A stretch of 64,000 nucleotides of DNA from Candidatus Ozemibacter sibiricus. GTDB taxonomy: Bacteria > Muiribacteriota > Ozemobacteria > Ozemobacterales > Ozemobacteraceae. The notes beneath the pieces are model-generated. The model worked only from the letters and a program-made list of their open reading frames with translations. It made no database searches and was not told the origin of the DNA. The stretch covers positions 1 through 64,000 of the forward strand of contig QOQW01000002.1 of the NCBI GenBank assembly GCA_003327425.1, written 5' to 3'. Numbering within the stretch: the first letter of the stretch is position 1; the number at the start of each line of letters is the position of its first letter. The translations under genes and the position numbers were made by a program. This document shows positions 186 to 17,477 of this stretch, piece by piece.

Positions 186-2564
186 CTACCTGGCCCGCCG
201 CGGGGCTTTGTTCTGGAGGGCGCGCCAGACGTCCTCCTGGCGGATGGGCATGTGGGTGAGATCGGCGCCGACCGCGTTCTGGAGGGCGTTGCCGAGAGCG
301 CCGGCGATGGCGATCATCGAATGCTCGCCGACCCCGCGCGCCCCGAAGGGGCCGTCGATCTGCGGGGTCTCGACGGCGATGCACTCGATCTCTTCGGGCA
401 GGTCGAGGGCCGTGGGGATCTTGTTGTCGGTGAAGTTGGGGTTGAGCAGCCGGCCGTCGGGAGCGTAGCGATAGCCCTCGCACATGGCCGTGCCCAGGCC
501 CTGGACCATGCCGCCGATGATCTGGCCGCGCACCGACTTGACGTTGATCGCCCGACCGACGTCGAAGGCGCTGGCCACTTTGATAATATTGTACTCACCG
601 GTACGAGGATGCGCTTCGACCACCAGGCCGTGGGCCCCGTAGGTCCAGTCGAGGGCGGGGTTGCCCTGGCCGGTCTCCTTGTCGAGATTGCTCAGGCCCT
701 GGGCGACGTAGCGACCGACCCCGACCAGCGGCCCGCCGATGGCGTTGCCGTCGGGGTAGGCGTAGCCGACCGCCATCGCCTTGAAGGTCACGAACTTCGA
801 CGGATGGTGCTTGAGGAAGACCTTCTCGTCGTCATGATCGAGATCGCAGGGGTTGGCCCGCAGCACCTGGGCCGCCACGTCGTAGGCCTTGCCGAGCAGA
901 TCGTGGGCGGCCAGGATGCCGGCATTGCCGCACAGCAGCAGGCCCTTGCTCGCCACCGTCTGCCAGTCGTAGGGATCGCGATCGGTGTCGTTCTCGATCG
1001 GCAGTTTGACCTTCTCGACCGGGAAGCCGAGCGCTTCGGCGATGATCTGCACGATGGAAGTGTAGGTACCGGCCCCGATCTCGGTCAAAGACAGGTTGAC
1101 GGTCACCGTTCCATCTTCATTCATCTTCAGGATGACCACGGTGCCGGTGAACGGCGGCATGGCCGGCGCTTTATGCAGGGCGACGACCGCCTTGCCGATC
1201 TTCATGCCGGTCTTCTTCTCGCGCGCTTTCTCGGCGGGAGTCAGCTTGCCGTAGCCGATCGCCTTGGCCACTTCCTCGAGGCAGAGGCTGACGTTGCCGG
1301 TGTGTTCGGTGATGACCTCGCCGGTCAGGGTCACCGAACCAGGCTTGAGGGTGTTGAGCAGCCGGAACTTCAACGGATCCATGCCGATGGTGCGGGCGCA
1401 CAGGTCCATGTGTCGTTCCATGCCCCAGGAGAACTCGACGTGGCCGAAGCCTCGATAGGCGGTACCGAACGGCTTGTTGGTGTACACCGTGTAGGCATCG
1501 ACCCAGGCGTTGGGAATCTCGTAGGGGCCGGCCGCCGAATAGCCCGAGGCGCGGGTGACATTGACCGCGTAGTCGGCGTAGGCGCCGGCGTCCCAGTACA
1601 TGGTCATCTTCTGGGCGACGATCTTCCCGTTCTTCTTGACGCCGGTCTTGATGTGGTAGACGAGGCCGGAGCGGCATGGCAGCAGGCTGAACTCCTCTTC
1701 GCGCGTGGCCTGGAGCTTGACCGGCCGGCCGCCCGCCTGCCGCGACAGCAGGCAGCAGAGCGGTTCGAGGTGGATGCCCGCCTTGCCGCCGAACCCGCCG
1801 CCCACGTACGGAATGTAGACCCGGATGTTGCAATGCGGAATCTTGAACGAATGGGCGAACAGGTTGCGGACGGTGAAGGGCGACTGCGCGCTGGTGATGA
1901 TGCTGATGCGATCGCCCAGCTGCCATTGGCCGATCGCCACATGGGTCTCCATCGGCACATGCTGGACGCTGGGGTTGGTGTACTCGCGCTCGACGATGAC
2001 GTCGGCCTCTTTGAACCCCTTCTCGACATCGCCCTTGCGCAGCTTGGTGTGGTTGGCGATGTTGGTGCCGGGAATGGGGGTGAAGACGGCCTTGACGTAG
2101 TCGTATTTCCCCAGGTCGGGATGGACGAGCGGCGCCCCTTTCTTCACCGCGGCCTTGACATCGAGCGCCGGCTCCATCACCTCATACTCGACCTCGATCA
2201 GATCGACCGCCTGCTGGGCGATGGCCGGCGTCTCGGCGGCCACGGCGGCGACCGCCTCGCCGAAATGCCGCACGACGTCCTTGGCCAGCACGTGCTTGTC
2301 GACGAGGTAGAGGCCGACGCGATAGTCGAGATCGCGGCCGGTGAGCACGGCATGGACGCCGGGCAGCTTCTCGGCCCGGCGGGTATCGATGCGTTTGATG
2401 CGGGCCTTGGCATGCGGGCTGCGTTTGACCTTGGCATGCAGCATGCCCGGCACCACCCAATCGCCGGTGTACAAGGCGGCGCCGGTCAGCTTCTCGATGG
2501 TGTCGATGCGTTCGATGCCCTTCCCGACGATCTTCAGTTCTTCGAGGGGGATGTTCTCAAACAC
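186..2564 (-). CDS. Xanthine dehydrogenase family, molybdopterin-binding subunit
   Basis: 792 residues, the usual length for the large catalytic subunit of three-subunit xanthine dehydrogenase/CO dehydrogenase-type hydroxylases. The family binds the molybdopterin cofactor and hydroxylates purines or other N-heterocycles and aldehydes. Visible motifs: an N-terminal hammerhead region (KLTGAALYTGDW, about 26-37), GGGFGGKAG near 255, YRGFGHVEFSWGMERH near 370, and the C-terminal GARGVGEHSM block containing the conserved active-site Glu. The start overlaps the end of the 2Fe-2S subunit gene by 8 nt, so the genes are translationally coupled. Substrate cannot be fixed from sequence; the fdrA/DUF1116 genes 14 kb away suggest purine breakdown. 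No accessory (xdhC-type) maturation gene is visible. Confidence 0.9.
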   Translation of the reverse strand: MFENIPLEELKIVGKGIERIDTIEKLTGAALYTGDWVVPGMLHAKVKRSPHAKARIKRIDTRRAEKLPGVHAVLTGRDLDYRVGLYLVDKHVLAKDVVRHFGEAVAAVAAETPAIAQQAVDLIEVEYEVMEPALDVKAAVKKGAPLVHPDLGKYDYVKAVFTPIPGTNIANHTKLRKGDVEKGFKEADVIVEREYTNPSVQHVPMETHVAIGQWQLGDRISIITSAQSPFTVRNLFAHSFKIPHCNIRVYIPYVGGGFGGKAGIHLEPLCCLLSRQAGGRPVKLQATREEEFSLLPCRSGLVYHIKTGVKKNGKIVAQKMTMYWDAGAYADYAVNVTRASGYSAAGPYEIPNAWVDAYTVYTNKPFGTAYRGFGHVEFSWGMERHMDLCARTIGMDPLKFRLLNTLKPGSVTLTGEVITEHTGNVSLCLEEVAKAIGYGKLTPAEKAREKKTGMKIGKAVVALHKAPAMPPFTGTVVILKMNEDGTVTVNLSLTEIGAGTYTSIVQIIAEALGFPVEKVKLPIENDTDRDPYDWQTVASKGLLLCGNAGILAAHDLLGKAYDVAAQVLRANPCDLDHDDEKVFLKHHPSKFVTFKAMAVGYAYPDGNAIGGPLVGVGRYVAQGLSNLDKETGQGNPALDWTYGAHGLVVEAHPRTGEYNIIKVASAFDVGRAINVKSVRGQIIGGMVQGLGTAMCEGYRYAPDGRLLNPNFTDNKIPTALDLPEEIECIAVETPQIDGPFGARGVGEHSMIAIAGALGNALQNAVGADLTHMPIRQEDVWRALQNKAPRRAR

Positions 2565-3057
2565 GGCGCAGCTCCTCCTTCTTCGGCTTGAGTTGCCCGG
2601 TGGCGTCGAGCACCGATTCGATGATCTGCTGGTAGCCGGTGCAGCGGCAGAAATTGCCTTCGATGGCCTCCTTGATCTGGTCGACGGTGGGCTTGGGATG
2701 CTCCCGCAGCAGCGCCTTCACCGACATCAGCATGCCGGGGGTGCAGAACCCGCACTGCACCCCATGGTTGCGATGGAAGGCCTCCTGCAGCTTCGACAGC
2801 TTGCCGTTCCGGGCCTCGCCTTCGACCGTCTCGATGGTAGCGCCATCGACCTCGGGCGCCAGCACCAGGCAGCTGTTGACCGCCTTGCCGTTCAGGATGA
2901 CCGTGCAGGCGCCGCATTCGCCGGCCCCGCACCCTTCCTTGGTGCCGGTGAGACCGAGATCTTCGCGCAGGAACCGCAGCAGCGTGCGGTTACCCGCCAC
3001 TTCTCGCGTATATCGCTTACCGTTGACCGTGACGGTCACGGAGTGTTTCGTGCTCAT
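2557..3057 (-). CDS. Xanthine dehydrogenase family, 2Fe-2S subunit
   Basis: 166 residues, the standard size of the small iron-sulphur subunit. The plant-type ferredoxin cluster is visible as GCGAGECGACTV near residues 42-53, and the second [2Fe-2S] cluster as CGFCTPG (about 101-107) and CRCTGY (about 136-141). It carries electrons from the molybdenum site toward FAD. It lies between the FAD subunit gene (28-nt gap) and the molybdenum subunit gene (8-nt overlap), the common order for this operon type. No export signal is seen, so it is probably cytoplasmic. Confidence 0.93.
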   Translation of the reverse strand: MSTKHSVTVTVNGKRYTREVAGNRTLLRFLREDLGLTGTKEGCGAGECGACTVILNGKAVNSCLVLAPEVDGATIETVEGEARNGKLSKLQEAFHRNHGVQCGFCTPGMLMSVKALLREHPKPTVDQIKEAIEGNFCRCTGYQQIIESVLDATGQLKPKKEELRRV

Positions 3058-3085
3058 CGTCGTCTTCCTCTCCTTCCAACCAGCT

Positions 3086-3901
3086 TCAGGCCAGCCTCGC
3101 CATCAGCCTGCCGATGAACTCCTCGACCATGAAGAGCCGGAACTCCCGGGAGGCGCGCACATCGTCGATCGGAGCGATCACCCGACGGGCAGCCGCCACC
3201 ACGGTGGCGACCGTCGCCGGCGGGGCCAGATCGGCCGTCACCACCGGAGTCGGCGCGCACGAGCCGATGCCGACCCGCAGCCACTTCGCGGTGCGGGCGA
3301 TGGCCACGCTGACCACCGCCAGATCATGCCCTTTGATGCGCTTGAGCTTTTCCATGCCCCAGGCGGCGCCGGCCGCGTCGGGCGGGTACAGCACCCGCTG
3401 CACGATCTCGTCATCTTGGAGCTGCGTCTGCTTGACGCCGGTGAAGAACTCCTTCATCGGAATGACGCGTGTGCCGCGCACCGAGGCCAGCTCGACCCGG
3501 GCGCCGAGCGCCAGGGAGCTGCAACCGAGATCGGCGCAGGGCGAGGCGGTGCAGAGATTGCCGCCGATGGTGGCCCGGTTGCGCAGCTGGGCCGAGCCGA
3601 TCTGCCCCGCCGCATGGGCCAGCAGCGGAAACTTCTTCCGGATCACCGGATGCCGCATGATCTCGAGACAGGTCACGGCGGCACCGATGGACAGCCCATC
3701 GCGCTCGGACCAGGCGATGTCCTGCAGCTCGGGGATGTGCTTGACGTCGAGCAGGAAGGCGGGTTTGTCGGTGCCGAGCCGGATCTCGCACAGCAGGTCG
3801 GTGCCGCCGGCCAGCAGGCGCGCCTGGCCGGCATGTTTCTTCAGCAATTGCAGCAGATCGTTCCTCTCACGCGGCGCCAGGTAGGAAAACTCATGTAGCA
3901 T
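3086..3901 (-). CDS. Xanthine dehydrogenase family, FAD-binding subunit
   Basis: 271 residues, typical of the medium FAD subunit (CoxM/XdhB type). FAD-binding signatures are LLAGGTDLL near residue 33 and TIGGNLCTASPCADL near 112. It accepts electrons from the 2Fe-2S subunit and passes them to an external acceptor. First gene of the operon; AAGGAG lies just upstream of the ATG (reads as CTCCTTT on the plus strand near 3911), and a promoter is visible at 3952-3980. Confidence 0.92.
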   Translation of the reverse strand: MLHEFSYLAPRERNDLLQLLKKHAGQARLLAGGTDLLCEIRLGTDKPAFLLDVKHIPELQDIAWSERDGLSIGAAVTCLEIMRHPVIRKKFPLLAHAAGQIGSAQLRNRATIGGNLCTASPCADLGCSSLALGARVELASVRGTRVIPMKEFFTGVKQTQLQDDEIVQRVLYPPDAAGAAWGMEKLKRIKGHDLAVVSVAIARTAKWLRVGIGSCAPTPVVTADLAPPATVATVVAAARRVIAPIDDVRASREFRLFMVEEFIGRLMARLA

Positions 3902-4021: not shown

Positions 4022-7000
4022 ATGAACGACTCCGGCACAACCCTGGTCTTCGGAACGCCTGACCGTGGCCTCCGGCGGTGGGCATTGCCGCTGCTGCTGA
4101 CCCTGGCACCGCTCCTCCTGCTCGGGCATCTGGTCCGCGAGGAGCAGAGCGAGCGGCAGGCCGATCGCGAGCGGCAGTTCCTCGAACGCCTCGAAAGCCG
4201 GGTGGCCCTGGTGCGCGAGGCCAGTTCGCTGCAGTTCTGGATCGAACGAACGGCCCGTCAGTACAAAGCGGCCTGGGCCCGCCTGGCTGCCCTGGGTTCT
4301 GGGCCCCTGGCCGATCGCCTGGCCCGCGCCGCGGCCGCCGCCGCTCGCCAGCTCGCCCCCGCCACTCGCGGCTTTCCTCCCATGCGTCTCTGGGTCTTTC
4401 AGACCGGGGCCACGCCGCGCCAAGGGCAGGGGCCCCTGGCCCGACCCCGCGTTCTCCTGGCACCGAGTCCGCGGCGCTGGCCCTCTGCTGCCCGCTCCAC
4501 TGCCTTGCAGGCTCGCGCCGTGACCAGCGGCCTGGGCCGGCTGATGCTGCTCGCCACTCGCATGGCCGGCACCGACCAGCGCGGGGCGCTCCTCCAGCAA
4601 GCTCTGACCACCGCCCGCCCCCTGTTCGGCGACGCCCTCCACCGCGAGATGTTCGCGCCCGAAGCGCGGGGCCAGGCCTTCCATGTGATCTTCCAGGGAC
4701 GCTTCCACTACCTGCTCTGGGATTTCCTGATGGTCGCCGGACGCCCGGTCGGCGCCGTCATCCTGACCATGGAACTGCCGCCCGATGCCGAGGAGCGGGC
4801 GTTGCGCCTCACCCTGGTCCATTGGCGAACCCTGGGCGGGAAAACCCCCTCCTGGCCGGCCTTCGGCCGTCTGCCCGACTGCGCGACGGCCCCCGCTGCA
4901 TCCGACGACCGGCCATCCGACCGCCCCGGTTCCACGGCCGCCGCCACTCATCCAACCGCCGCCCGACCGCCCGCCCCGACCGGCGGCGCGCCGCGTCCCG
5001 CGCCGCTGCTCCTGCCGGCCGACCTGCGTGGCACCGCCGCCGCCCGCGCGCTGCGCCAGCTCCACCAGGAGGTGGTCATCCAACCGGCTTCGTTCTCCCT
5101 GGCCGAGCTGCGCGGCAAGCCGCTCTCGCCGCTCCTCACCCACGCCCTCGGCCGGCTGTCCTTCCCCACCGCGCAGTTGCAGCGAGCCTTGCCGCTCGGC
5201 TCCCACTGGGGCCGGCTGTTCGTGCTCGGCCCCGGCCGAACCCACGTCGGATTCCTGGTCGCCCCCGCGCCGCCACCGCCTGCGACTTCCCTGGGCCGGG
5301 TGTGGCAGGCGCTGGCGGTCGCCGTTCTCCTGCTCTGGACGGCGTTCCTCGGCGGCACGGCGGTGACCGGCCGACCGCCGACGCTCCCGGTGGCCGGTCA
5401 GCTCCTGGCCTGGTTCTTCTGCCTGGTGGCCATTCCTCTGCTGCTGCTCCACGCCTCCGGCGAACGCCTGGCACGGGACCTCGAACATCGCCTGCATGCC
5501 CAGGCCCGCCGGAAACTGACGGCCCTGGCCCGTCACCTGGAAGGCGAGGCCACCCGCCTCGGCCAGCGGCAAGCGCAGGTGGTGAGCGCCCATATCCACC
5601 GCCCGGCCCTGCTCGACCGGCTGCTCGGCACGCTGGCCAGCACGGCCACGTGGCCCGCCGCGCCAGCGACCGCCATCGACGAGCACCGCCCCCTTCCGCC
5701 TTCCCCGACACCGACCAGGGGGCCGACCGGAGTCTCTCCCCGCGCCGCCGCCGCCCTCGCCGACCTCTGGCAAGCCCTCGAGCGAGATGGGCTCCAGCCG
5801 CAGGTCATCCAGATCGCCGTCGGGCGTCCCACCGTGACCCAGGTCACCCGTTTCACTGATCGCTACAGTCCTGAGGAGCAAGCGCAACTGTCGAAGGTGC
5901 TGCTCGACCAGGCCCACGAGGACTTCCGCGCCGTCCCTGGCCAGATCGAGCCGGGCAACGCCTCGGCCTCTCCGGGGCCCTTCCGTCGCCACCGGAATTT
6001 CGCCAAAGGGACCGCCGGGCGCTACGGCTTCGCGACCCTGGGTAGCCGCCGGATCTGCCGGGTCAACCAGTTCATCTACCGGCAGGGTCGGCTGGTCATG
6101 ACCATCAACGTCTATTGGGACCATACTCGCCATTACCAGCAACGGATGCGTCAGCTCGTACAGCGCCTGCATGCCCGTCAGGGCCTTGAAGCCGTGGTGC
6201 TGCTCCGTCAGGGAGGCCGCTGGGAAACCATCGCCGAAGCCGGACGGACGACGACCCTGAAGCAGGCGGCCCGCCGGGTCGATGACCGCACCGTGGCCTT
6301 CCCTGAGACCCGCCGCCGCTTCCTGCGGGTGCTGCACCCCGGCACCGACCTGGCCGGATATGTGTTCGGGCTGCGCGCCTCCCTGAGCGCCATCGATCGC
6401 CGCCTCGCCGCCGAGACCAGGGCCCTGCGCCGGTTGATCGTGGCGAGCCTCCTGCTGGTGGTCATGGCCGGCCTGGCCATCGCCTGGTGGGTGGTCGGGC
6501 CGGTCCGGGCCATGACGGTCGCCCTCGAGCACGTCGGCCAGGGCGATTTCACGGTGCGCCTCCGGTCGCCACGCGCGGACGAACTCGGTCAGACCGCCCA
6601 CGCCCTCGACCGGATGATCGCCTGGCTGGCCGAGCGCGACCGGATGAGCCGGTTCGTCGCCACGCCGGTCATGGAAGCCCTCGCGGCCACCGGCGGCACG
6701 CCCGAGGCCGCCCGTCGGCGACGGATGGTGGCCATGCTCTGCGACATCCGAGCATTCACCACCATCAGCGAGACCCACCCGCCGCCGGCCGTCTTCGCCA
6801 TGCTCAATCGCCACTTCGAGGAGATGACCCCGTTCATCCGAGCGGCCGGCGGAGTCATCGAGCGTTTCATCGGCGATGCCATCCAGGCCGTCTTCTGGTC
6901 GTCCGCTGACGACCCGGCCCCGCCCCGCGCGCTGCGCGCCGCGACCGCCATGCTCGACCGCCTGGCGCAAATCAACCGGGCCCGGGTCGCCGCCGGGGAA

Positions 7001-10000
7001 TTCCCGTACCGCATCGGCATCGGTCTGGCCGAAGGGGAAGCCCTGACCGGCATCGTCGGCGATCCGGCCATCCGCCAGGACTTCAGCGTGCTCGGCCCGC
7101 TCCTGGGCGAGGCCGCCGCGCGCGAGGCCCTGACCCGACAAGCGCAGAATCTGCCCATCGCCGTCTGCGGGAAGGTCCGCGCCCAGGCCGGGCCTGGCTG
7201 GCAATTCCTCCCCCTGCCCGGCCACCCCGACACCTGGGAAGCCTGCCCCGCGCCCGCCGCCGTCCCGGCGGCCGCGCGCCCCGCCTCTGCCGACGCTCCG
7301 TCCTCTGCCGCGCCGCGCGGGAGCGGCCCCTCTGAATCCATCGCCCGATCCGCCGAGACGGCCGACCCCGCCGCGCTCGACGGGGGCGGAGCCGGGCCGG
7401 GCGCCGCCGCACCGCGGTCGCGGCGCCTGGCCGCTGGCCAGGACCTCGGCCGGGAAGGCGGCTGGGGCCCGACTGCGCTCCTGGCCGCGTTCTGGATGAT
7501 GACCATCCTGCTGCTGGGCGAGGCCGAGCAGACCTGGCGCCAGGCCTGGGCGAACCATTTCCGCGCCGGCCAACGGGACGCCCTTCGGCATGATCTGCGC
7601 CTGACCCAGGGCACGGCCGTGGCCGGGTTCCAGATCCCCCAGCGCTGGTGCACGCTGGTCGACACCACGCTCGCCGCGCCCGCACCGGCCTGGGCCGACA
7701 CCCCTCGCCAGCACGCGGAGCTGCTCGCCCGCCTGGCCCGCTGGCCGGCGAGCGGATCCTGGTTCATCGTGCGCCCCGCCCCGCCCGACCAGATCACCAC
7801 GCTCATCACCAGCGTCTTCCTGCTGGGAGAGGCCCTGTTCGGCGAGATTCCCGACCAGCACCCGTCCCTGGCCTTCCTGCTGGATCTCCGCCACTGGACG
7901 CGCCAGAGCGCGGCGCGGCTGCTGCCGCAGCACCGCCCCGCCCTGGCCTTCCTGGCCCGGCTGCTGTGGCGATCCAGCGGCCACCTGACCCGGCGGCTCT
8001 GGGAAAGCCGGATCACGGCGGCCCGCCCGGGCGCCTTCCCCCGGCCGAGCGGCGAGGTGGCCGTTCTGGCCTCGATGATCCGGATCTGGTATGACAGCGG
8101 CGTTCGCCATCCCGACGGCCGCCCTCTGGAAAAACTGTTCTTGAACCAACTCTGGAACCTCGGCAACAACGCGCTCGACGATCTGCTGCGCATGGGCTTC
8201 CGCGGACTGGGGCACTGCATCCTGGGCGGGCAGGGCTACCATGTCTTCTGGCTGCCCCTGCCGGCTGCCCGCCCCGCCCCCGTCTTCCAACATCTGTTGC
8301 CGCTGCGCGGCCCCCTCCCTCGCCTGCCGGCCGCCGCCATCCTGATCGGGTTCTTCCCGCAGGAAACCCTGACCGGGCGAAGCAGCCTCCGTCCCCTCCT
8401 GCAAGCGCTCCGGGCTGACGCCGCCCGCCGCGGCACCGCGCTGGCCTTCCAGCCGCTCGAGGACGGCCCCGCCATCAGCCATCCCTGGTTCCGCCACCCG
8501 CGGGCCCGTGCCGGGCGGACCGGCGCCCCCGCCTCGCGCGCGCCGCCTCCCGAGCTCCTCGTCGAGCAGGCCGGTCTGGAAGTCGGAGGACGCCCCTATC
8601 GGGTGACCGCTCTGCGGCGGCTGTCGCGCCAGCCGCCCCTGCCGCTGGGGCTGCGCGGTCTGGCCATCTTCCGCGTGGCCTGGCTCTGGCTCGGCCTGGG
8701 CGCCGCCGTTCTCTGGCTCATCCGGCCTGTTCCCCTGCCGCTGGGCCTGACCGGCCGCCTGACCGCCGCGTTCCTGATCGTGGTCGCCCCCGTCCTGGCG
8801 CTCAGCGCCATCGTCCTGCAGCGCCGCTTCGAGGCCAGCCGACCCGGGCTGACCGATCGCCGTCTGGCCGATCTCCAGCTCGCCGTCAATCGCTTCGAAG
8901 AATCCCATCTGGCCCGCCTGGGGTGGGCCGAACGGCTGGTGCGATCACGGCTCCATGACCCCGACGTCCTGGCGGCCTGTCGCCAGGCGGAACGGGCCAG
9001 ACGGCCCGCTCCGTCGGGAGATGCCCCCCTCATCCTCGAGCTGGCCGACTGGCTCTTCCGACACGGGGTGGGAACGACCGAACTGGCCATCACGGGAGGC
9101 CACGATCTGGTGCTGGGGCGGGAACGCGTCGCCGAAGGCACCAAGGGCGGCAGCCGCTTCCTGGGCGCCCTCTTCGCCGGTTCGCTGGCGCGCCTGGCGG
9201 CGGCCGAAACGCCGGCCCCCGCCCCCGGCCCACGGGACGACGCCCTGCTGAAAGATGCCGTTCTGGAAGACCTGCGCATCGCCATGGTCACCTTCTCCAC
9301 GCCCGACCTGGTGCAGACCTTCTTCAACAGCCCGCATGCCGCCACACGCATCCGCTGGGGCGAGAAAGCCCACAACTTCTTCCACTGCTATTTTCCCGAG
9401 CACCGACCCCGCTATGTGCTGTTCGCCCAGTGGGAAGAACTGTCCTTCCTGGGTTGGCCCCTCGCGCAATGGCGCCGATTCCTGCGCACCGACCCCGGCG
9501 GAGCGTGCGAAATCCGGTTGGCCGATCCCACCAGCCCGGCCGTTTCCTACGTCCGACCGTTCTTCACGTCCAATCATTGGAATCTCCAGTGGCCGGCTTT
9601 CGCCAGCCATGTGCTGCCCGACCGCGGCGAACTCGCCGCCTGGGTCGCCCAGGCCTCGTTGCTGGGCGAGCCGCTGGGCGGGGTGGTCGACCCGACCGGC
9701 CCGGCTCCGACCCTCATCCTCGCCCAGCGGTCTCACCGCTTCGGCCGCTATCTGCTGACCATCACCCAGGATTTCGCTCCCGCCCTGGCCGCGCTCGACC
9801 GCCAGATCCAGGTCGCCTTCCTGGTCCTGGGCCTGGTGATCCTCGCCACGTTCGCCCTGGCCCGCTCGGTGGCAGCGCGGTTCATCGCCCCTCTGCAGGC
9901 CCTCTGGCAGGCGGCGGAACAGGTGATCGGGGGCAACTTCCAGGTCATCCTGGCGTTGGCCCGCCGCGACGAGTTCGGCGATCTGGCCCTCTCGTTCAAC

Positions 10001-10669
10001 CGCATGTGCCAGGATCTGGACGCGGGATGGCGCCTGCGCCGCTTCGTCTCCGAGTCGGTGCAACGGGTCGCCGAGGATGTCAAGCTGGCCGAAGAGGCGC
10101 GCCGCGGCCAGATGCGCGAGCGGGTGGTGCTGTTCGCCGGCGTGGGCGGCTTCCTCGAGGCCGGCGACCATCTGCCACCCGAGGCGGCCGTGGCCCGTCT
10201 GAACGCCTATCTCAGCCGCCTGGCCCAGGTCGTTCGGCGTCACGATGGGGAAATCGACAAATTCATCGGCGAGAAGATCCTGGCCACCTTCGCCCCGGAA
10301 CCGCATGGCTCGCTCCCGGCGGCCGCCGGGGCCGCCGTGGCCGCGGCCCGCGAGCTGGCCGCCACCCTCGACCGCGTCGCCCCCGCCCTCCGTCATCAGC
10401 TGGGAGTCGGCATCGTCACCGGGCGGGTCCTGGCCGGCATTCTGGGCACGCCCGCGGTGCGCCTGGAATACACCGTGCTGGGCGATCCGGTCAATCTGGC
10501 CGCGCGGTTGTGCGAGCGGGCCATCCACCAGCCCGCGACCACCATCCTGCTCGATGCCGCCACCGCCCGTCTGGTCGAGACGAGCGGGCTGGCCTGCCAT
10601 TCCCTGGGCGCGGTCCGCGTCAAAGGGAAAACCCACGACGTCGAGGTGTTCAGCCTTGTCGATGTCTGA
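4022..10669 (+). CDS. Giant two-cyclase membrane protein A (class III adenylate cyclase, C1/C2-like)
   Basis: 2215 residues in two similar halves. First half: membrane helix 19-37, large extracytoplasmic region, helices near 430-450 and 461-480, second sensor region, helix 805-826, HAMP, then a cyclase domain about 890-1060. Second half repeats the plan: helices near 1153-1170, 1555-1575, 1580-1600 and 1930-1950, HAMP, cyclase domain about 2030-2215. The first domain has both metal-binding Asp (D908 in LCDIRAFTTISE, D952 in ERFIGDAIQAVF), but Arg948 replaces the base-binding Lys and Gly1029/Ala1033 occupy the Asn/Arg transition-state positions. The second has Gly2040 and Glu2084 in place of the two Asp but keeps K2080, T2151, N2158 and R2162 (EYTVLGDPVNLAARL). 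The halves therefore complement each other like C1 and C2 of animal adenylyl cyclases, and Lys/Thr point to ATP rather than GTP. A Pro/Ala-rich linker joins the halves. No good ribosome site precedes the ATG; a TGTGCTACCTT element lies 12 nt upstream. Confidence 0.85.
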   Translation: MNDSGTTLVFGTPDRGLRRWALPLLLTLAPLLLLGHLVREEQSERQADRERQFLERLESRVALVREASSLQFWIERTARQYKAAWARLAALGSGPLADRLARAAAAAARQLAPATRGFPPMRLWVFQTGATPRQGQGPLARPRVLLAPSPRRWPSAARSTALQARAVTSGLGRLMLLATRMAGTDQRGALLQQALTTARPLFGDALHREMFAPEARGQAFHVIFQGRFHYLLWDFLMVAGRPVGAVILTMELPPDAEERALRLTLVHWRTLGGKTPSWPAFGRLPDCATAPAASDDRPSDRPGSTAAATHPTAARPPAPTGGAPRPAPLLLPADLRGTAAARALRQLHQEVVIQPASFSLAELRGKPLSPLLTHALGRLSFPTAQLQRALPLGSHWGRLFVLGPGRTHVGFLVAPAPPPPATSLGRVWQALAVAVLLLWTAFLGGTAVTGRPPTLPVAGQLLAWFFCLVAIPLLLLHASGERLARDLEHRLHAQARRKLTALARHLEGEATRLGQRQAQVVSAHIHRPALLDRLLGTLASTATWPAAPATAIDEHRPLPPSPTPTRGPTGVSPRAAAALADLWQALERDGLQPQVIQIAVGRPTVTQVTRFTDRYSPEEQAQLSKVLLDQAHEDFRAVPGQIEPGNASASPGPFRRHRNFAKGTAGRYGFATLGSRRICRVNQFIYRQGRLVMTINVYWDHTRHYQQRMRQLVQRLHARQGLEAVVLLRQGGRWETIAEAGRTTTLKQAARRVDDRTVAFPETRRRFLRVLHPGTDLAGYVFGLRASLSAIDRRLAAETRALRRLIVASLLLVVMAGLAIAWWVVGPVRAMTVALEHVGQGDFTVRLRSPRADELGQTAHALDRMIAWLAERDRMSRFVATPVMEALAATGGTPEAARRRRMVAMLCDIRAFTTISETHPPPAVFAMLNRHFEEMTPFIRAAGGVIERFIGDAIQAVFWSSADDPAPPRALRAATAMLDRLAQINRARVAAGEFPYRIGIGLAEGEALTGIVGDPAIRQDFSVLGPLLGEAAAREALTRQAQNLPIAVCGKVRAQAGPGWQFLPLPGHPDTWEACPAPAAVPAAARPASADAPSSAAPRGSGPSESIARSAETADPAALDGGGAGPGAAAPRSRRLAAGQDLGREGGWGPTALLAAFWMMTILLLGEAEQTWRQAWANHFRAGQRDALRHDLRLTQGTAVAGFQIPQRWCTLVDTTLAAPAPAWADTPRQHAELLARLARWPASGSWFIVRPAPPDQITTLITSVFLLGEALFGEIPDQHPSLAFLLDLRHWTRQSAARLLPQHRPALAFLARLLWRSSGHLTRRLWESRITAARPGAFPRPSGEVAVLASMIRIWYDSGVRHPDGRPLEKLFLNQLWNLGNNALDDLLRMGFRGLGHCILGGQGYHVFWLPLPAARPAPVFQHLLPLRGPLPRLPAAAILIGFFPQETLTGRSSLRPLLQALRADAARRGTALAFQPLEDGPAISHPWFRHPRARAGRTGAPASRAPPPELLVEQAGLEVGGRPYRVTALRRLSRQPPLPLGLRGLAIFRVAWLWLGLGAAVLWLIRPVPLPLGLTGRLTAAFLIVVAPVLALSAIVLQRRFEASRPGLTDRRLADLQLAVNRFEESHLARLGWAERLVRSRLHDPDVLAACRQAERARRPAPSGDAPLILELADWLFRHGVGTTELAITGGHDLVLGRERVAEGTKGGSRFLGALFAGSLARLAAAETPAPAPGPRDDALLKDAVLEDLRIAMVTFSTPDLVQTFFNSPHAATRIRWGEKAHNFFHCYFPEHRPRYVLFAQWEELSFLGWPLAQWRRFLRTDPGGACEIRLADPTSPAVSYVRPFFTSNHWNLQWPAFASHVLPDRGELAAWVAQASLLGEPLGGVVDPTGPAPTLILAQRSHRFGRYLLTITQDFAPALAALDRQIQVAFLVLGLVILATFALARSVAARFIAPLQALWQAAEQVIGGNFQVILALARRDEFGDLALSFNRMCQDLDAGWRLRRFVSESVQRVAEDVKLAEEARRGQMRERVVLFAGVGGFLEAGDHLPPEAAVARLNAYLSRLAQVVRRHDGEIDKFIGEKILATFAPEPHGSLPAAAGAAVAAARELAATLDRVAPALRHQLGVGIVTGRVLAGILGTPAVRLEYTVLGDPVNLAARLCERAIHQPATTILLDAATARLVETSGLACHSLGAVRVKGKTHDVEVFSLVDV

Positions 10670-13600
10670 ATCCCGCGCGCGTACGCCGCCACCCCGCGAG
10701 GGCGCCACCCTGACCACCACGACCGCCGACGACGGACGGCGCGTCTTCGTGGTCCCCCCGGGAGGGATCGCCCGGTGGCTGCTGCCGATGTTCCTGACGC
10801 TGCTGCCGCTGCTGGCGCTGCTGCCCACCATTCGCGAAGAGGCGCAACAACAGGCCCGCGAGCAGGAACGGCGCCTCGTCGCCGCCTCCGACCCCGTGGT
10901 GGCCAGGTTCCGCGAGGCAGCCTCCTTGAAATTCTGGGCGGCCTGGACGGCCCGGCGTCTGGTCCGCGCGGTCGAGCGCCGATTGCCCGAGGCCGGCGTG
11001 ACCGACGCGACCGCCGCGCTGGGCCGGGCTCTGACCGATCTGGGCTGTCGCTACCGCTTCGCCGGCAGTCCGCCGGTCCGGGTCTGGGCGTTCGCCCTGC
11101 CCGTTGCCCCCGACGCCTCGGGCGCCCCGGGCGCCGCCGCGAACCCGGCTCCCGGAAAGGCCCAGGCTCTCACCGGGCCGGGCCTGGAGACGACCTACCG
11201 ACGGGTCTTCGGCCAGTTGTTCCAGGCCCTCGCCACCGCCCACCAGACCCGCGCCCCGCTGCCCCGGCGGGTGGTCAAGACGTTCCAGGAGATGTTCGGC
11301 CCGGGAGTGACGCGCGCCGCGCTGTCCCCGGCCCATCGCGGCATGCCCTTCCACGTCTTGTTCCAGGGCCGGTTCTCGCTTCTGGTCTGGGATATCTGGA
11401 CCTGGCACGACCGCCCGCTCGGCGGGTTCTTCCTCGTCATGGACCGCCCCCCCACCGCCGATCATCTGGCCATCGAGCTGGCGGTGCGGCATTGGCGCCG
11501 GCTGGCCGGCCGCCATGCCCTCTGGCCAGCCTGCTTCCTGTTTCCCGGCCCGCGCCTGCCAGGTCTGCCACGCCAATTGATCCATCCGACCCTGGTCGAA
11601 GCGGATCTGGTCCCCCGCCTCCGTCGCCTGGCTCGCGAACTGCGGGTACAACAAGCCCCGGAACGACTCGACCAGGTCGACCCCGGCCGCTGGCCCCCGG
11701 CGGTCACCGAAGAAGCCATGGCCATTCCCTGGTTCCATTCCGCCAGGCCTGGCCTGGCCGCGACGCCCACCGCCATCCTCTCCGTTCCTTCGCCGGATCC
11801 GGCCTCTCCGCCGACGGTGCTGGGCAGTCTGGTCTACCCGCTCCACCGTCTCGATCGATTCCTGCCGGTCGGTCCCTGGTTGACCCGGCTGGTGACCCTC
11901 GGCCAGGATGCCCCCTACTTCGCCTTCCTGGTGATGCCTCGCCCGGGAACTCCAGTCTCCGGGCTGACCATGGCCTGGCAAACTCTTTTCATCGGTTGGG
12001 CGGCTGGGTGGAGCCTGCTCTTCTGTCTGGCCCTGGCCCGACGGCATCTCCCGCAGCCGCGCGTCGCCCTCCAGCTCGCCGGGTGGATGTTCTGCCTGAT
12101 GGGGCTGGCCGGGGTGCTTCTGCTGGCTTCCCAGCGCCGCCTTCTCCAGGACCTCGAAGCCCGCCTGATCGACCAGGCCGCGCAACGCATGCAGGAGCAG
12201 GCGCGCACGCTCGAAGGGGAGGCGGCCCGCCTGACCTGGCGACAAGGCCTGATCTGCCATCGGATCCTGCGCGGGCCAGCCTGGCATGCCAGACTGATCG
12301 CCGACCGGCTCGCTGCCATGCCAGACCAGGAGCCGGGCCAGGGCAGCGCCGGCATCGCGTCCGCTCCGACCGCCCCGCCAGCGCGATCGCCGGCGCCCCC
12401 CACGAGCCCGGTCGGCCTGCCCCGGCGCGCCGGCCGGCCCGACCGCGCCGATCCGCTCGCCGCCGCCTGGTCCCTGCTGCAGCGCGGCGGGCTGGCCCCC
12501 CAGATCCTGGCGGTCGTCGGCTCCGGAGGGTATGTTCTGGCCACCTTCTCTTCCGACATCGCTCCTGAGGAGCAGCCACCCCTGCTGGACGCCATCCGCG
12601 CCCATGGCGAGCCGTTCATCGCCCAGGAACGAGGCTGGCTGGCCTCTGATCCGGCCCGCTTCAGCATCGGCCAATTCTTCTCGAATGACCGAGGCCACGA
12701 TCTGCGCAACCCCGGGACGGTGAGCACCGCCGTGCTCGGCGGCCGCCGGTTCTGCCGCCTCCACCAGTTCGTCCTGCACCAGGGGCGTCCGCTGCTCTAT
12801 GTCGTGGCGTTCTGGGAAAGCGACCGGGAGCTGCCCGTCCACTTGCGCCGCTTGCTGTGCCGCACCCATGGCCGCAGCGGCCTGGAAACCGCGGTCTTCC
12901 GCCGGCAGGGCATCGACCTGCACCTGATCGCGGCCGCGGGGCGGGTGACCACGCTGCGCGCGTCGGCGGCCGAGGATACCCAGAAACCGCGCCTGCGACG
13001 GGAAGCCAACGGGCAGTTCCTGCAGTATCTCTATCCCAGCCCCGTGCTGCAAGGCTACACGTTCGCCGTCCGACAGCCCCTGGACCCGGTGCTGCGACCC
13101 TTGCGCGACGAGGAGCGCTCCTTCCAAGTCCGCATCTTCCTGGGGCTCCCCCTGCTCTTGCTCCTGGGGGCCCTCGCCCTGCACGGCTGGCTAGCCTGGC
13201 CGATCCAGGATCTGACCACCGCCCTGGGACGCCTCGACGGCGGGGATTTCACCGCCCGTCTCGATCTGGTGCGGGGGGATGAACTGGGGCAGGCGGCCAC
13301 GGCCTTCGACCGCATGGCCGCCGGCCTGCAGGAACGCGACCGGATGAGCCGGTTCGTCGCCGCCCATGTCATGGCCGCCATCCGTACCGCCGAGCCCATC
13401 GACCCCGGCGCCAGCCGACAGGGCCCGGTCATCATGCTGTTCGCCGATATCCGCGGGTTCACCACCCTCTCCGAGGCGCATCCGCCTGAAGCCATCTTCG
13501 CCGCCCTCAATCGCCACTTCGAAGCGCTGTCGCCCTGCGTGCAGCGGGAGGGCGGCTGCATCGAACGCTTCATCGGCGATGCCATCCAGGCCGTGTTCGA

Positions 13601-16600
13601 GGACGGCCCCACCGCGGTCGACCGGGCTCTCCGCGCCGCCCTGGCCATGCGCCAGGCCTGGCAGGACCTGCAGGCCGAGCGGCGGGCGGCCGGCACCTTT
13701 GTCTACGGCATGGGCATCGGCCTGGCCTACGGCGACGGCATCACCGGCATCGTGGGCGATGCCCGGATCCGGCAGGATGTCGCGGTCCTGGGACCGCCGG
13801 TCGCTGAAGCCGTGGCCATGGAAGCCCTCACCAAAGAGGTGGGCGGATCGGGCATCGTCTGTTCGGCCGAGATCCGCGAGAAGGCCGGGCCGGGGTGGTA
13901 TTTCGCGCCGGTCCCCGGCCATCCCCAGGCCTGGCTTCTCCTGGAGGAACCAGCCGCCCCAACGAAGGTCAGTGCCCTCGACCGCTCTCAGGTCGACGGG
14001 GCCACCGACTCCACCTCCTCTGGCTCCACCGCCAGTTCCCCCTCTGGCGAAAGACCGAACGCCCCCCCTCCGTCCGCCTCGACGACTCCTCCCCATGACC
14101 TTCCCGCAGGGACCGACACGCCTCGGACAGACAGAAGCTCAACCGCCCCCATGCCCTCCATCCTGTCATCCCGGCCGACCACCGAGGGAGGGCCGACCAG
14201 CCGTTCGCGGTCGGCGCGGCGCCTCGACTGGACCACCTGGTTGACCGCCGGCCTGTTCTGGCTGCTGGCCCTGGCTCTTATGTCGAGCGCCACCGCGGCC
14301 TGGCGGCAGGATCTGCACGCCCATCGCGTCCGGCAGGCCGACCGGGCCCTGCAACAGGATCTGATCGAGATTCGCAAGACCAGTGGCGAACAGACCCAGG
14401 TCGCTCTTCTCCTGCGCGAGCTGTTCCACGAGGTGCACCGCCAGCCCGCCGCGCCGGCCGCCACCGGCCGCTCCCACGAAGAATCTCTCCAGAGGGGCTC
14501 CAGGGAGATCACCCCCTATCAGACCCTCCTGCAGCGCCTGCGCCGACGCTGGCCCACGTTGAGCTGGGCGATCGTCTCGGGCGAGGCGTTGCCGATCGCC
14601 AGCCTTGCCGCCCCCCCGTCTTCCCCTCGCGCCCCCCTCGCCCCCCCTGCCCCGGGCGGCTCCCCTTCCCCCGCCTCTCCGCCCGACCCGCTGTTGCTGG
14701 AGATCTGGGCGTGCCGCGAGGAGATGGGACTGGCGACCAGACCCGGCAGTCCTGACCATCCGGTGGTGGAGGAGGCCCGCGCCCAGGGCTGGACGCCCCG
14801 CCGGCTGATCCCCGATGCTGCCTACGCGACACGGATCCTGGCCACCAGCCCCACGCCGACGCCTCTACGGCCCTGGCAACTGGTGCATCTGCACGCGATC
14901 CTCACCCGGTTTCGCGAAAGCCGGACCCGCTCCAGCCGCGTGTCACCTGCGGAAATGCTCTTCCTGCCCACGTTGGGCGAACATCCTCTCCAGCTCCAGG
15001 ATCTCGCGGTCGAATCCTCCAGCGGCTTCCGAACCTTGCGCCTGGAGGGTCGAGAATGGCTGTTCTACTGGGAATACCTTCCTCGCCCGCGACGGGGCGG
15101 CATCCTGCTCTTCCTGCCTGCCGACGCCATCGACCCAGCCGCCGGGTGGCGCGCCCTGGTGGAACGGCTGGGCCGGGGCGGGACCGTGCTGGTCCTTCCC
15201 AATTCCTCGGGGCGAGCCCCGCCCCTTCGTGCGGCCCGCCCGCGGCCTGGCCGCCGGGCCACCGTCGATCACCGCCGCCGGGCCCGGCTCCAGCTGCGCC
15301 AGATGATGGCCACCGGTCGTCCGCGACCCGACTGGGTGATGCGCCGAGGAATCCTGGAGACCGACCGGCAAAGGCGGCGCGTCCTGGCCGGGCGTCGCCT
15401 GGCGCCGCCCGGCCGCCCGCCCTGGCCTCTGCAGGTCGGCGAGATGGTGTGCCTCCTGTGGCTGGGGGCCGGACTGCTGGCCAGCGCCGGACTGCTCCTG
15501 CCCCGGCCGCCGCTCAAGCTGTCCCTGCGCCCCAAGCTGGCCGCAGCCTTCCTGGCCCTGCTGCTGCCGACGCTGGTCGTCAGCTCGGCCGTGTTCGGCC
15601 GCAGCGCCCTGGCCCAGATCGCCGGAACGGAAGCCCGCCTGGGCGATGAACTGGAACAGGACCTTCGCCGCTCCGAGGACGCCTATGAGGCCATCCTCGC
15701 CTGGAACAGCCGACTCTTGCGCGGCACCCTCCACCAGCCGCGCTTCGCCACCGCCCTGCTCAGCGCCACGCCCTTGGCCCCGCCCGCGACCACGGCGGAG
15801 GCGCAGCCCCTGGATCCCGCCATCCGACGCCTGTATGATGAAATCCTGTCCTACGGCGCCGTTCCGGTCGGCCTCGGGGTCGGCGGGCCCGGCCTGCCCA
15901 CCCGTTCGGTCAACGTCATGGCCTTCCTGTGGGGGAAGGAGGACCAGGGCCGCCTGTTCGTCCCCCTGACCGCCCGATCCCTGCGCGCTCTCAACCCGGA
16001 GATCGGCCAGTTTCAGCCGGGCCCATCGGCCGCCCATCAGACGCCGAACCGTGACGACCTCTTGGCCGAGGAGGTGCTCAGCACCCTCTCCCTGATTTCC
16101 ACGGGGGAATTCCTGACCGACGTCCTGCATGCCCCCTGGGTCCTCTGCCGCATGCAGTGGGGGATCAGCACCGTCCAGGTCTTTCGCGCCTTCCTGCCAT
16201 TCCGCCACCCTCCTCGCGCCGTGCTGTGGGTGATCTGGGACTACCGCTGGGGCATCCTGCCGCTGGCCGCCGGTTGGCAGCGTACCGACCCCGAACGTCC
16301 CGACCTCGATCATCGCGTGGCGATCCAGAACTCCCCCAATGTGACCTTCGTCATGCCCTATCTGGCCTTCTGGCCCGTCGGGCCGAACCGACGCTGGGCC
16401 GGCTTCCGCGAATTCGTGTCCTATGATCCCCCCGAAGTGGGCCGGCTGCTCAGCACCGCCCGCCAAACGGGCGAGACCACCACCCGGATCCTGGGGGAAG
16501 GCGATGAAGCCAGGCTGGTCCTCGCGCGCCAGAGCGCCGCCACCCTGCGGTCCATCCTCCTGGTCTCGTCGCCCATCGGCCAGCGGTGGGCGACCCTCCG

Positions 16601-17477
16601 GCAGCAGGCCGACCTCCATCAACGGTTCCTGGCCGCCCTGCTGCTGGCCTCCCTGATCCTGGCGCGCCTGATCGCCGCCCGGTTCCTCGGCCCCCTGGAA
16701 GCCTTCTCGCAAGCCGCCGAGGCGGTGCGGGCCGGCAACTATCGGGTGGGCCTGCATCTCGACCGATCCGACGAGTTCGGCGCCATGGCCCTCGCCTTCA
16801 ACCGCCTGTGCCAGGGCCTCGAGGAGGGCCGCCTCCTGCGACGGTTCGTCTCCGAGTCGGTGCGGCAGGCGGCCCGCGACGATGGGCGGGCGGCAGAAGC
16901 CCGGCACGGCCGGCACCGCGACGCCGTCATCCTGTTCGCGGGCACCGCCCCGCTGGCGACAGGCGGCGCCGATCAGGCGCCCGCCGCGATCCTGGCCCGT
17001 CTCAATGCGTTCCTGGCCAATGGGGCCCGGATCATCCAGCGCCATGACGGCGAGATCGACAAATTCCTCGGCGAGAAGATCCTAGCCGTCTTCGAGCCCA
17101 CCCCGCCCGCGTCGCTCGAGACCGCCGCCCGCGCCGCGGTGGCCGCCGGCCGGGCCCTGACCGAAGAGCTGGGCGGGGCGACCACCGGGATCGGTCCGGT
17201 CGGGGTGGGCATCGCGACCGGCCGGGTGCTGGCGGGCATTCTTGGAACGCCCACCGTGCGGCTCGAGTACACCGTCCTGGGCGACCCGGTCAATCTGGCC
17301 GCCCGCCTGTGCGACCTGGCGCTTCAACCGGGCCGGTCCACCGTCCTGTTCGACACCACCACCGCCCGCCTGGTCGCCGCCGCGGGCCTCGCCTGCCAGC
17401 CCCTCGGCCGCACCCGGGTCAAAGGAAAATTGCGAGAAGTGAACGTCTTCCGGCTCCGCCCACCGCCTCGAGAGTAG
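10662..17477 (+). CDS. Giant two-cyclase membrane protein B (paralogue of A)
   Basis: 2271 residues. The start chosen is the ATG inside the 8-nt overlap ATGTCTGA with gene A; the frame stays open upstream, but only because of antisense-like bias. Same plan as A: helices near 37-58, 435-460, 468-490 and 823-846, HAMP, cyclase domain about 920-1090; then helices near 1191-1213, 1590-1612, 1625-1646 and 1988-2010, HAMP, cyclase domain about 2085-2271. First domain: metal Asp D929 (LFADIRGFTTLSE) and D973 (ERFIGDAIQAVF), Arg969 for Lys, and Ala1041/Ala1048/Ala1052 where Thr/Asn/Arg are expected. Second domain: Gly2094 and Glu2138 replace the two Asp, while K2134, T2204, N2211 and R2215 remain. 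The complementary loss is the same as in A, so it predates the gene duplication or is under common selection. Predicted inner-membrane receptor-cyclase; ligands unknown. Confidence 0.85.
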   Translation: MSESRARTPPPREGATLTTTTADDGRRVFVVPPGGIARWLLPMFLTLLPLLALLPTIREEAQQQAREQERRLVAASDPVVARFREAASLKFWAAWTARRLVRAVERRLPEAGVTDATAALGRALTDLGCRYRFAGSPPVRVWAFALPVAPDASGAPGAAANPAPGKAQALTGPGLETTYRRVFGQLFQALATAHQTRAPLPRRVVKTFQEMFGPGVTRAALSPAHRGMPFHVLFQGRFSLLVWDIWTWHDRPLGGFFLVMDRPPTADHLAIELAVRHWRRLAGRHALWPACFLFPGPRLPGLPRQLIHPTLVEADLVPRLRRLARELRVQQAPERLDQVDPGRWPPAVTEEAMAIPWFHSARPGLAATPTAILSVPSPDPASPPTVLGSLVYPLHRLDRFLPVGPWLTRLVTLGQDAPYFAFLVMPRPGTPVSGLTMAWQTLFIGWAAGWSLLFCLALARRHLPQPRVALQLAGWMFCLMGLAGVLLLASQRRLLQDLEARLIDQAAQRMQEQARTLEGEAARLTWRQGLICHRILRGPAWHARLIADRLAAMPDQEPGQGSAGIASAPTAPPARSPAPPTSPVGLPRRAGRPDRADPLAAAWSLLQRGGLAPQILAVVGSGGYVLATFSSDIAPEEQPPLLDAIRAHGEPFIAQERGWLASDPARFSIGQFFSNDRGHDLRNPGTVSTAVLGGRRFCRLHQFVLHQGRPLLYVVAFWESDRELPVHLRRLLCRTHGRSGLETAVFRRQGIDLHLIAAAGRVTTLRASAAEDTQKPRLRREANGQFLQYLYPSPVLQGYTFAVRQPLDPVLRPLRDEERSFQVRIFLGLPLLLLLGALALHGWLAWPIQDLTTALGRLDGGDFTARLDLVRGDELGQAATAFDRMAAGLQERDRMSRFVAAHVMAAIRTAEPIDPGASRQGPVIMLFADIRGFTTLSEAHPPEAIFAALNRHFEALSPCVQREGGCIERFIGDAIQAVFEDGPTAVDRALRAALAMRQAWQDLQAERRAAGTFVYGMGIGLAYGDGITGIVGDARIRQDVAVLGPPVAEAVAMEALTKEVGGSGIVCSAEIREKAGPGWYFAPVPGHPQAWLLLEEPAAPTKVSALDRSQVDGATDSTSSGSTASSPSGERPNAPPPSASTTPPHDLPAGTDTPRTDRSSTAPMPSILSSRPTTEGGPTSRSRSARRLDWTTWLTAGLFWLLALALMSSATAAWRQDLHAHRVRQADRALQQDLIEIRKTSGEQTQVALLLRELFHEVHRQPAAPAATGRSHEESLQRGSREITPYQTLLQRLRRRWPTLSWAIVSGEALPIASLAAPPSSPRAPLAPPAPGGSPSPASPPDPLLLEIWACREEMGLATRPGSPDHPVVEEARAQGWTPRRLIPDAAYATRILATSPTPTPLRPWQLVHLHAILTRFRESRTRSSRVSPAEMLFLPTLGEHPLQLQDLAVESSSGFRTLRLEGREWLFYWEYLPRPRRGGILLFLPADAIDPAAGWRALVERLGRGGTVLVLPNSSGRAPPLRAARPRPGRRATVDHRRRARLQLRQMMATGRPRPDWVMRRGILETDRQRRRVLAGRRLAPPGRPPWPLQVGEMVCLLWLGAGLLASAGLLLPRPPLKLSLRPKLAAAFLALLLPTLVVSSAVFGRSALAQIAGTEARLGDELEQDLRRSEDAYEAILAWNSRLLRGTLHQPRFATALLSATPLAPPATTAEAQPLDPAIRRLYDEILSYGAVPVGLGVGGPGLPTRSVNVMAFLWGKEDQGRLFVPLTARSLRALNPEIGQFQPGPSAAHQTPNRDDLLAEEVLSTLSLISTGEFLTDVLHAPWVLCRMQWGISTVQVFRAFLPFRHPPRAVLWVIWDYRWGILPLAAGWQRTDPERPDLDHRVAIQNSPNVTFVMPYLAFWPVGPNRRWAGFREFVSYDPPEVGRLLSTARQTGETTTRILGEGDEARLVLARQSAATLRSILLVSSPIGQRWATLRQQADLHQRFLAALLLASLILARLIAARFLGPLEAFSQAAEAVRAGNYRVGLHLDRSDEFGAMALAFNRLCQGLEEGRLLRRFVSESVRQAARDDGRAAEARHGRHRDAVILFAGTAPLATGGADQAPAAILARLNAFLANGARIIQRHDGEIDKFLGEKILAVFEPTPPASLETAARAAVAAGRALTEELGGATTGIGPVGVGIATGRVLAGILGTPTVRLEYTVLGDPVNLAARLCDLALQPGRSTVLFDTTTARLVAAAGLACQPLGRTRVKGKLREVNVFRLRPPPRE

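Follow-up and report, generated by a model that had tools for sequence, protein, structure and literature searches.

A predicted bacterial adenylyl cyclase of Candidatus Ozemibacter sibiricus with complementary C1-type and C2-type domains in one membrane-bound chain

The mammalian membrane adenylyl cyclases (class IIIa, AC1-AC9; e.g., AC5, 8sl3/8sl4, and AC9, 7pde) carry two membrane modules and two cyclase domains, C1 and C2, in one chain. Their metal-binding Asp pair is present in C1 only, while the Lys and the Asn/Arg are located on C2, resulting in one catalytic and one degenerate site. The mammalian soluble adenylyl cyclase (AC10/sAC) is likewise a C1-C2 tandem in one chain; only one of its sites is active, and the second is regulatory. 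In the human soluble enzyme, bicarbonate is bound by Lys95 and Arg176 (PMC4506562). The bacterial homodimeric class III cyclases, such as bPAC, OaPAC, P. aeruginosa CyaB and CyaC, have one domain per chain with a full residue set; each homodimer has two identical sites. In the heterodimeric soluble guanylyl cyclase and in the fungal RGC/NeoR pairs, all of them eukaryotic guanylyl cyclases, the catalytic dimer is made of two unlike subunits; in the latter pairs, RGC1 and RGC2 retain all catalytic residues (PMC8815786). According to Schultz (2022), bacterial class III adenylyl cyclases homodimerise and fused dimeric species are unknown in bacteria (PMC9552081). A literature search with partial coverage retrieved no relevant papers on cyclases of Riflebacteria or this phylum. 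Priority for bacterial fused C1-C2 cyclases is likely but, as the coverage was partial, not proven.

The window, i.e. the whole stretch of DNA analysed here, comprises 64,000 nucleotides of Candidatus Ozemibacter sibiricus (contig QOQW01000002.1, positions 1 to 64,000). The product of one of its genes, gene A, is very likely a membrane-bound class III adenylyl cyclase organised as a pseudoheterodimer, with one ATP site across C1 and C2, a dead mirror site and two sensors acting on one site, which would have evolved by duplication, reciprocal loss, coupled gene pairs and fusion; no activity data exist. As in the mammalian membrane enzymes, two membrane modules, C1 and C2 are found in one chain with the same division of residues, and as in sAC a single active site is predicted for a tandem chain, although sAC is soluble and the gene A product membrane-bound. 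It differs from the mammalian membrane enzymes in having twice four predicted transmembrane (TM) segments with extracytoplasmic sensors and HAMP domains instead of twice six TM segments, in a Thr as base residue of C2 (Asp in mammals), in the replacement of the C1 Lys by Arg, in its separate position in the tree, in being bacterial and in the coexistence of two-gene forms. To our knowledge, a G-alpha partner is not to be expected in a bacterium. The nearest solved relatives of each gene A domain are the bacterial homodimeric enzymes, which have the Lys/Thr adenine recognition in common with it, while the two-gene pairs of Riflebacteria are comparable to the two-subunit guanylyl cyclases.

Domain layout and catalytic residues of gene A

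The features of gene A are as follows.

4022..10669, + strand: gene A, fused C1-C2 class III cyclase, 2215 aa (open reading frame and translation)
4022..6478, + strand: membrane sensor region of the N-half, aa 1-819, four TM segments and two extracytoplasmic segments, the second possibly PAS/dCache-like (AF2 model and weak Foldseek matches)
6479..6619, + strand: HAMP domain of the first half, aa 820-866 (PF00672, E 3.6e-10)
6698..7252, + strand: C1-type cyclase domain; D908 and D952 kept, Lys replaced by R948, Thr by S1022, Asn by G1029 and Arg by A1033 (alignment, Pfam)
6743..6745, + strand: codon of D908, metal site 1 (aligned to the metal Asp of bPAC, OaPAC and AC5)
6875..6877, + strand: codon of D952, metal site 2 (alignment)
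7460..9862, + strand: membrane sensor region of the C-half, aa ~1147-1947, homologous to the N-half sensor (hhalign)
10094..10663, + strand: C2-type cyclase domain; G2040 and E2084 in place of the metal Asp, K2080, T2151, N2158 and R2162 kept (alignment, Pfam, profile)
10259..10261, + strand: codon of K2080, adenine-recognising Lys (alignment)
10493..10507, + strand: codons of N2158 to R2162, transition-state Asn/Arg (alignment)

Based on Pfam and hydropathy, the layout is TM-ecto-TM-TM-ecto-TM-HAMP-C1 followed by TM-ecto-TM-TM-ecto-TM-HAMP-C2. Pfam identified HAMP (PF00672) twice, once in each half and positioned between the last TM segment and the output domain, and Guanylate_cyc (PF00211) twice. 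Hydropathy peaks are located around residues 20-38, 430-448, 457-475 and 806-824 in the first half and around residues 1147-1165, 1549-1570, 1580-1598 and 1929-1947 in the second. With four peaks per half, spaced by loops of ~330-390 residues, the chain does not contain two hexahelical membrane domains. Outside HAMP, Pfam gave no match in the sensor region. An AF2 model of residues 1-881 (pLDDT 78.5, pTM 0.73) retrieved chemoreceptors and dCache ligand-binding domains as best Foldseek matches, at E 1e-8 to 1e-3 (about 1e-3 for dCache) and with low TM scores. When the profiles of the N-half and the C-half were compared with hhalign, 937 columns aligned with a probability of 100 and an E value of 2e-78; homology over this length indicates that the whole receptor, sensor included, was duplicated and not the cyclase domain alone.

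The class III cyclase homology fold of both domains is supported by the two PF00211 matches, by PDB sequence matches and by the Foldseek matches of a homolog model (see below). Catalytic positions were assigned by alignment to bPAC, OaPAC, P. aeruginosa CyaB, AC5-C1 and AC2-C2, with the AC5 and AC2 sequences checked against the PDB. Around the gene A motifs, the registers are gap-free relative to the solved structures and AC5-C1/AC2-C2. In the order metal 1, Lys, metal 2, base 2, Asn and Arg, the canonical enzymes read D-K-D-T-N-R, while C1 of gene A reads D-R-D-S-G-A and C2 reads G-K-E-T-N-R; the same columns are D-K-D-D-T-H in AC5-C1 and S-K-S-D-N-R in AC2-C2. The complete residue set (two metal Asp, two base residues, Asn and Arg) is only obtained jointly, from D908 and D952 of C1 and K2080, T2151, N2158 and R2162 of C2. 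Judged from these alignments, the chain is composed of two homologous receptor halves, with only the metal half-site in C1 and only the base and transition-state half-site in C2.

An earlier sequence-only reading had assigned D908, D952, R948, G1029 and A1033 in the first domain and G2040, E2084, K2080, T2151, N2158 and R2162 in the second to the same roles. All these numbers are correct in the translation, and the alignment places the residues in the same registers. That animal transmembrane cyclases divide the duties between C1 and C2 in this way was borne out by AC5-C1 and AC2-C2, with the differences that the bacterial C1 Lys is replaced as well and that metal position 2 of C2 is a Glu. 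An Asn/Arg elsewhere in C1 or an Asp in C2 would have refuted the assignment; neither appeared in the alignment with bacterial class III and mammalian C1/C2 domains. The residue R1034, one past the expected Arg position, does not rescue the C1 site; it aligns with the following Leu and is a Met in the paralogue. Metal position 2 of C2 is Glu in gene A and Asp in about half of the relatives, so the invariant loss is that of metal position 1, or of the pair as a whole.

Gene B, the other sets in the genome and the relatives

Directly downstream, a second gene with the same division is found, and the two genes together lie between a molybdenum hydroxylase operon and an FdrA gene.

10662..17477, + strand: gene B, a tandem paralogue divided between C1 and C2 in the same way (37% identical to residues 8-2212 of gene A)
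13401..13946, + strand: C1-type cyclase domain of gene B (alignment)
16896..17462, + strand: C2-type cyclase domain of gene B (alignment, profile)
186-3901, - strand: molybdenum hydroxylase operon (xanthine dehydrogenase/4-hydroxybenzoyl-CoA reductase-like), divergent from gene A
17652-19181, + strand: FdrA-family gene, following gene B

If gene B starts at its candidate ATG at 10662, it shares 8 bases with the end of gene A, stop codon included. At the six positions, gene B reads D-R-D-A-A-A in C1 and G-K-E-T-N-R in C2. The neighbourhood hints at purine or allantoin metabolism; that the signal is related to either is no more than a guess.

The genome of Ca. Ozemibacter sibiricus (5.68 Mb, 58 contigs) contains 53 Guanylate_cyc matches. 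Among these are 17 C1-type and 17 C2-type domains, organised in 7 fused chains (gene A, gene B and those on contigs C2, C5 (two), C28 and C43) and 10 adjacent gene pairs (contigs C13, C15, C17, C18, C29 (two), C36, C47 (two) and C55), while the rest are nearly all canonical. Each of the 17 C2-type domains is fused with or adjoins a C1-type domain. A search of the genome with a C2 profile, itself built from these 17 domains, retrieved them at E<=6e-55, followed by a gap, with the canonical cyclases starting from 5e-43. The genome also contains 14 matches to cNMP-binding domains, plausible receivers of cAMP.

In a scan of contig collections, for which a six-row subset of the alignment was used, the closest relatives were found in MAGs named Candidatus Riflebacteria or Candidatus Ozemobacteraceae. 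C1 and C2 occur in one frame in 26 chains, gene A included, and as adjacent pairs in many more loci. In the phylum of the window (40 genomes), a strong C1-profile match (E 3e-51 or better) is present in all 24 genomes of its own family, and the best such match has C1-type residues in 18 of the 18 family genomes read, its own included. The complementary split proposed for gene A thus recurs in gene B and dozens of relatives, and the expectation that it would be met in other genomes was fulfilled within the Riflebacteria/Ozemobacteraceae MAGs. Together, the neighbouring gene with the same split, the 17 sets and the family-wide pattern rule out chance.

No paired cyclases of this kind (~1000 aa) were found in one genome each from six other families of the phylum, nor any adjacent or same-frame cyclase pair among the 44 cyclase domains of 5 unrelated genomes; the search of bacteria beyond these genomes was not exhaustive. 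That the split is absent outside the Ozemobacteraceae, based on a canonical best C1-profile match, was rejected, being wrong for one family (f3) with more diverged C1 domains. Four genomes assigned to Cloacimonadota or UBP17 by NCBI (G030-G033) contain gene arrays in C2-then-C1 order, whose C2 domains lack the Asp at metal position 2 as well and have K, T or S there. Spread between phyla was dismissed for these genomes, since a phylum search centred on G030 returns them alongside genomes with match coordinates equal to those of Ozemobacteraceae; in the genome search they fall into the same phylum as the relatives of the window. It was likewise dismissed for the ‘Methylomirabilis’ locus L113, which has the same position and motif as G009. 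The NCBI labels of L113, L115, L112, L116, L117 and L120-L122 (Methylomirabilis, Erysipelotrichia, Cloacimonadota, UBP17) conflict with their Riflebacteria kinship, tentatively so for L115 (‘Erysipelotrichia’). Three of these loci (L112, L116 and L117), labelled Cloacimonadota and belonging to the GTDB phylum of the window, have tandem alternating C2-C1 genes with a K at metal position 2 of C2.

Aligned rows were sorted into C1 and C2 by metal position 1, Asn and Arg, without the use of Lys, Thr and metal position 2. Within the C1 clade of the phylum, both metal Asp are present in 72/72 rows and Asn and Arg together in none (0/72), with 13 different residues at the Asn position and 13 at the Arg position. 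The C2-type domains have Lys, Thr, Asn and Arg each in 53/53 and both Asp together in 0/53. Because of the sorting, the counts for metal position 1 and Asn/Arg are in part circular, which does not apply to the invariance of Lys, Thr and metal position 2 of C1. As far as can be concluded from sequences alone, the complementary split is under strong selection.

Proposed pairing of the domains and nature of the active site

In the proposed mechanism, C1 and C2 would pair head-to-tail, normally within one chain. In the single complete ATP site, D908 and D952 would bind two Mg2+, K2080 and T2151 would read the adenine, and N2158 and R2162 would stabilise the transition state, with cAMP as the product. 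The mirror site, consisting of G2040, E2084, R948, S1022, G1029 and A1033, is inferred to have no catalysis. Two different sensor modules might act through the two HAMP domains on the relative orientation of C1 and C2, such that one catalytic site would integrate two inputs. The bicarbonate-binding Lys and Arg of sAC, by our own placement at the C1 Lys and Arg positions, appear to correspond to R948 and A1033, so bicarbonate is not supported as a ligand of the dead site.

A structure was modelled for a fused homolog (L109), ~19% identical to the gene A protein over the span, using its C1-to-C2 stretch of 1200 aa with 26 fused homologs. The resulting AF2 model has a mean pLDDT of 77.8 and a pTM of only 0.54. 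Among its Foldseek matches, human AC5 (8sl4, E 9e-12) ranks first and AC9 (7pde) third, with more than 1200 columns aligned. Against AC9, a TMq of 0.28 over 1200 residues equals ~336 residue-equivalents, twice the ~160 of single-domain matches (0.13-0.14), which indicates that both domains superpose together. C1 and C2 therefore probably pair as in AC9, insofar as a homolog model without residue distances can tell. The paired-domain model asked for in the sequence-only reading is favourable to the same extent: L109 aligns to the whole AC5 and AC9 chains, which allows the Asp pair of C1 to lie opposite the Lys, Thr, Asn and Arg of C2 across one site. The class III dimer is known to AF2 from its training and may be reproduced from there, so the model is supportive but no independent proof.

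A complementary site could also be formed between two chains, from C1 of one and C2 of another, possibly a paralogue, in a larger oligomer or by mixing. There is room for this, as one genome has 17 similar C1/C2 sets, unfused pairs necessarily pair across chains and HAMP receptors usually dimerise in parallel. It is nevertheless unlikely, as the C1 and C2 domains from one locus diverge together (r=0.82 between C1 and C2 distances over 53 pairs; 0.24 at the highest in 2000 permutations), the gene pairs are start-stop coupled and the single-chain model of L109 pairs its own C1 with its own C2. The coupling was observed in 10 of the 11 C1-then-C2 gene pairs examined (L042, L040, L043, L044, L035, L103, L105, L107, L111, L118 and L115), where the stop of the first gene and the start of the second share a 4-base overlap (ATGA/GTGA). 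This overlap would mean coupled translation and equal amounts of the C1 and C2 proteins. The exception is L042, with an ATG at or next to the stop.

It is quite improbable that both domains are degenerate and that gene A encodes a dead receptor or a scaffold without cyclase activity. Essential residues are indeed missing from each domain alone and most fused members have Arg for Lys in C1, but the losses are exactly complementary, and the kept half-sites do not vary among dozens of diverged sequences, a constancy not expected under relaxed selection. Real decay looks like the paralogue at G000:C29:88420-88833 (L050:4406-4891; 786 aa), reading G-K-E-T-R-H, in which both metal Asp and the Asn/Arg are lost and which, from its motif, is probably a catalytically dead cyclase domain.

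Guanylyl cyclases have Glu/Cys at the base-recognition positions. Two residues cannot prove the choice of substrate, so use of GTP, alone or by a promiscuous enzyme, remains conceivable; yet it is hard to reconcile with the Lys/Thr pair, as in the adenylyl cyclases bPAC and OaPAC, in 53/53 C2 domains instead of Glu/Cys.

Origin of the split

A tree of 181 rows was computed with the six trait columns taken out. The C1 rows form one clade (SH-aLRT 99), as does a 54-row group with all C2 rows (84). A quick tree of a 68-row subset gave a support of 72 for C1, 43 for C2 and 88 for the split between canonical and C1+C2 domains. In both trees, AC5-C1 clusters with AC2-C2 (93 and 99) and neither joins the bacterial C1 or C2 clade, which makes the split look convergent. 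The most economical reading of these sequences is that the pseudoheterodimer arose convergently from bacterial homodimers. Descent from, or a direct common origin with, the eukaryotic pseudoheterodimeric cyclases via gene transfer would explain the identical division of residues between C1 and C2, but has next to no credibility given these trees, the PDB matches of C1 (bacterial and a few non-animal cyclases, with mammalian enzymes missing E 0.01) and a membrane part of HAMP and a possibly dCache-like sensor that is not hexahelical.

The convergent origin would have begun with a membrane cyclase duplicated in tandem, whose copies then lost catalytic residues reciprocally; start-stop-coupled pairs, which are still in the genome, would have come next, and then fusion, probably more than once. 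Fused chains are found in the main clade of the window and, separately, as L036, L106 and L109 among gene-pair sequences, pointing to at least two fusions or some fissions. A small indel at the start-stop overlap could fuse such a gene pair. On the whole, we consider it probable that the Riflebacteria/Ozemobacteraceae lineage has pseudoheterodimeric adenylyl cyclases independent of those of eukaryotes, with the stages in one genome (canonical single-domain cyclases, start-stop-coupled pairs and fused chains, with at least two fusions), and that the fused enzyme connects two sensors to one active site, with the dead site available to a regulatory ligand. Bacteria would then have reached the same outcome as the split-site adenylyl cyclases of animals, apparently by an independent route, and still retain the gene-pair intermediates, along with ~17 replicate sets in one genome. 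Both the route (duplication, complementary loss, coupling and fusion) and the benefit (two sensors with one output, and a free second site) are testable on small bacterial domains.

Three gene pairs of the own genome (L039, L045 and L038) are arranged the other way round, with C2 ahead of C1, and the Asn is still kept in two of their C1 domains; they may represent earlier stages of the split. At L104:636-10515, three adjoining cyclase genes encode two C1-type domains and one C2-type domain, possibly alternative partners. At L086:3-5051, the fused C1-C2 frame is broken by a single in-frame stop between the halves (4478/4482).
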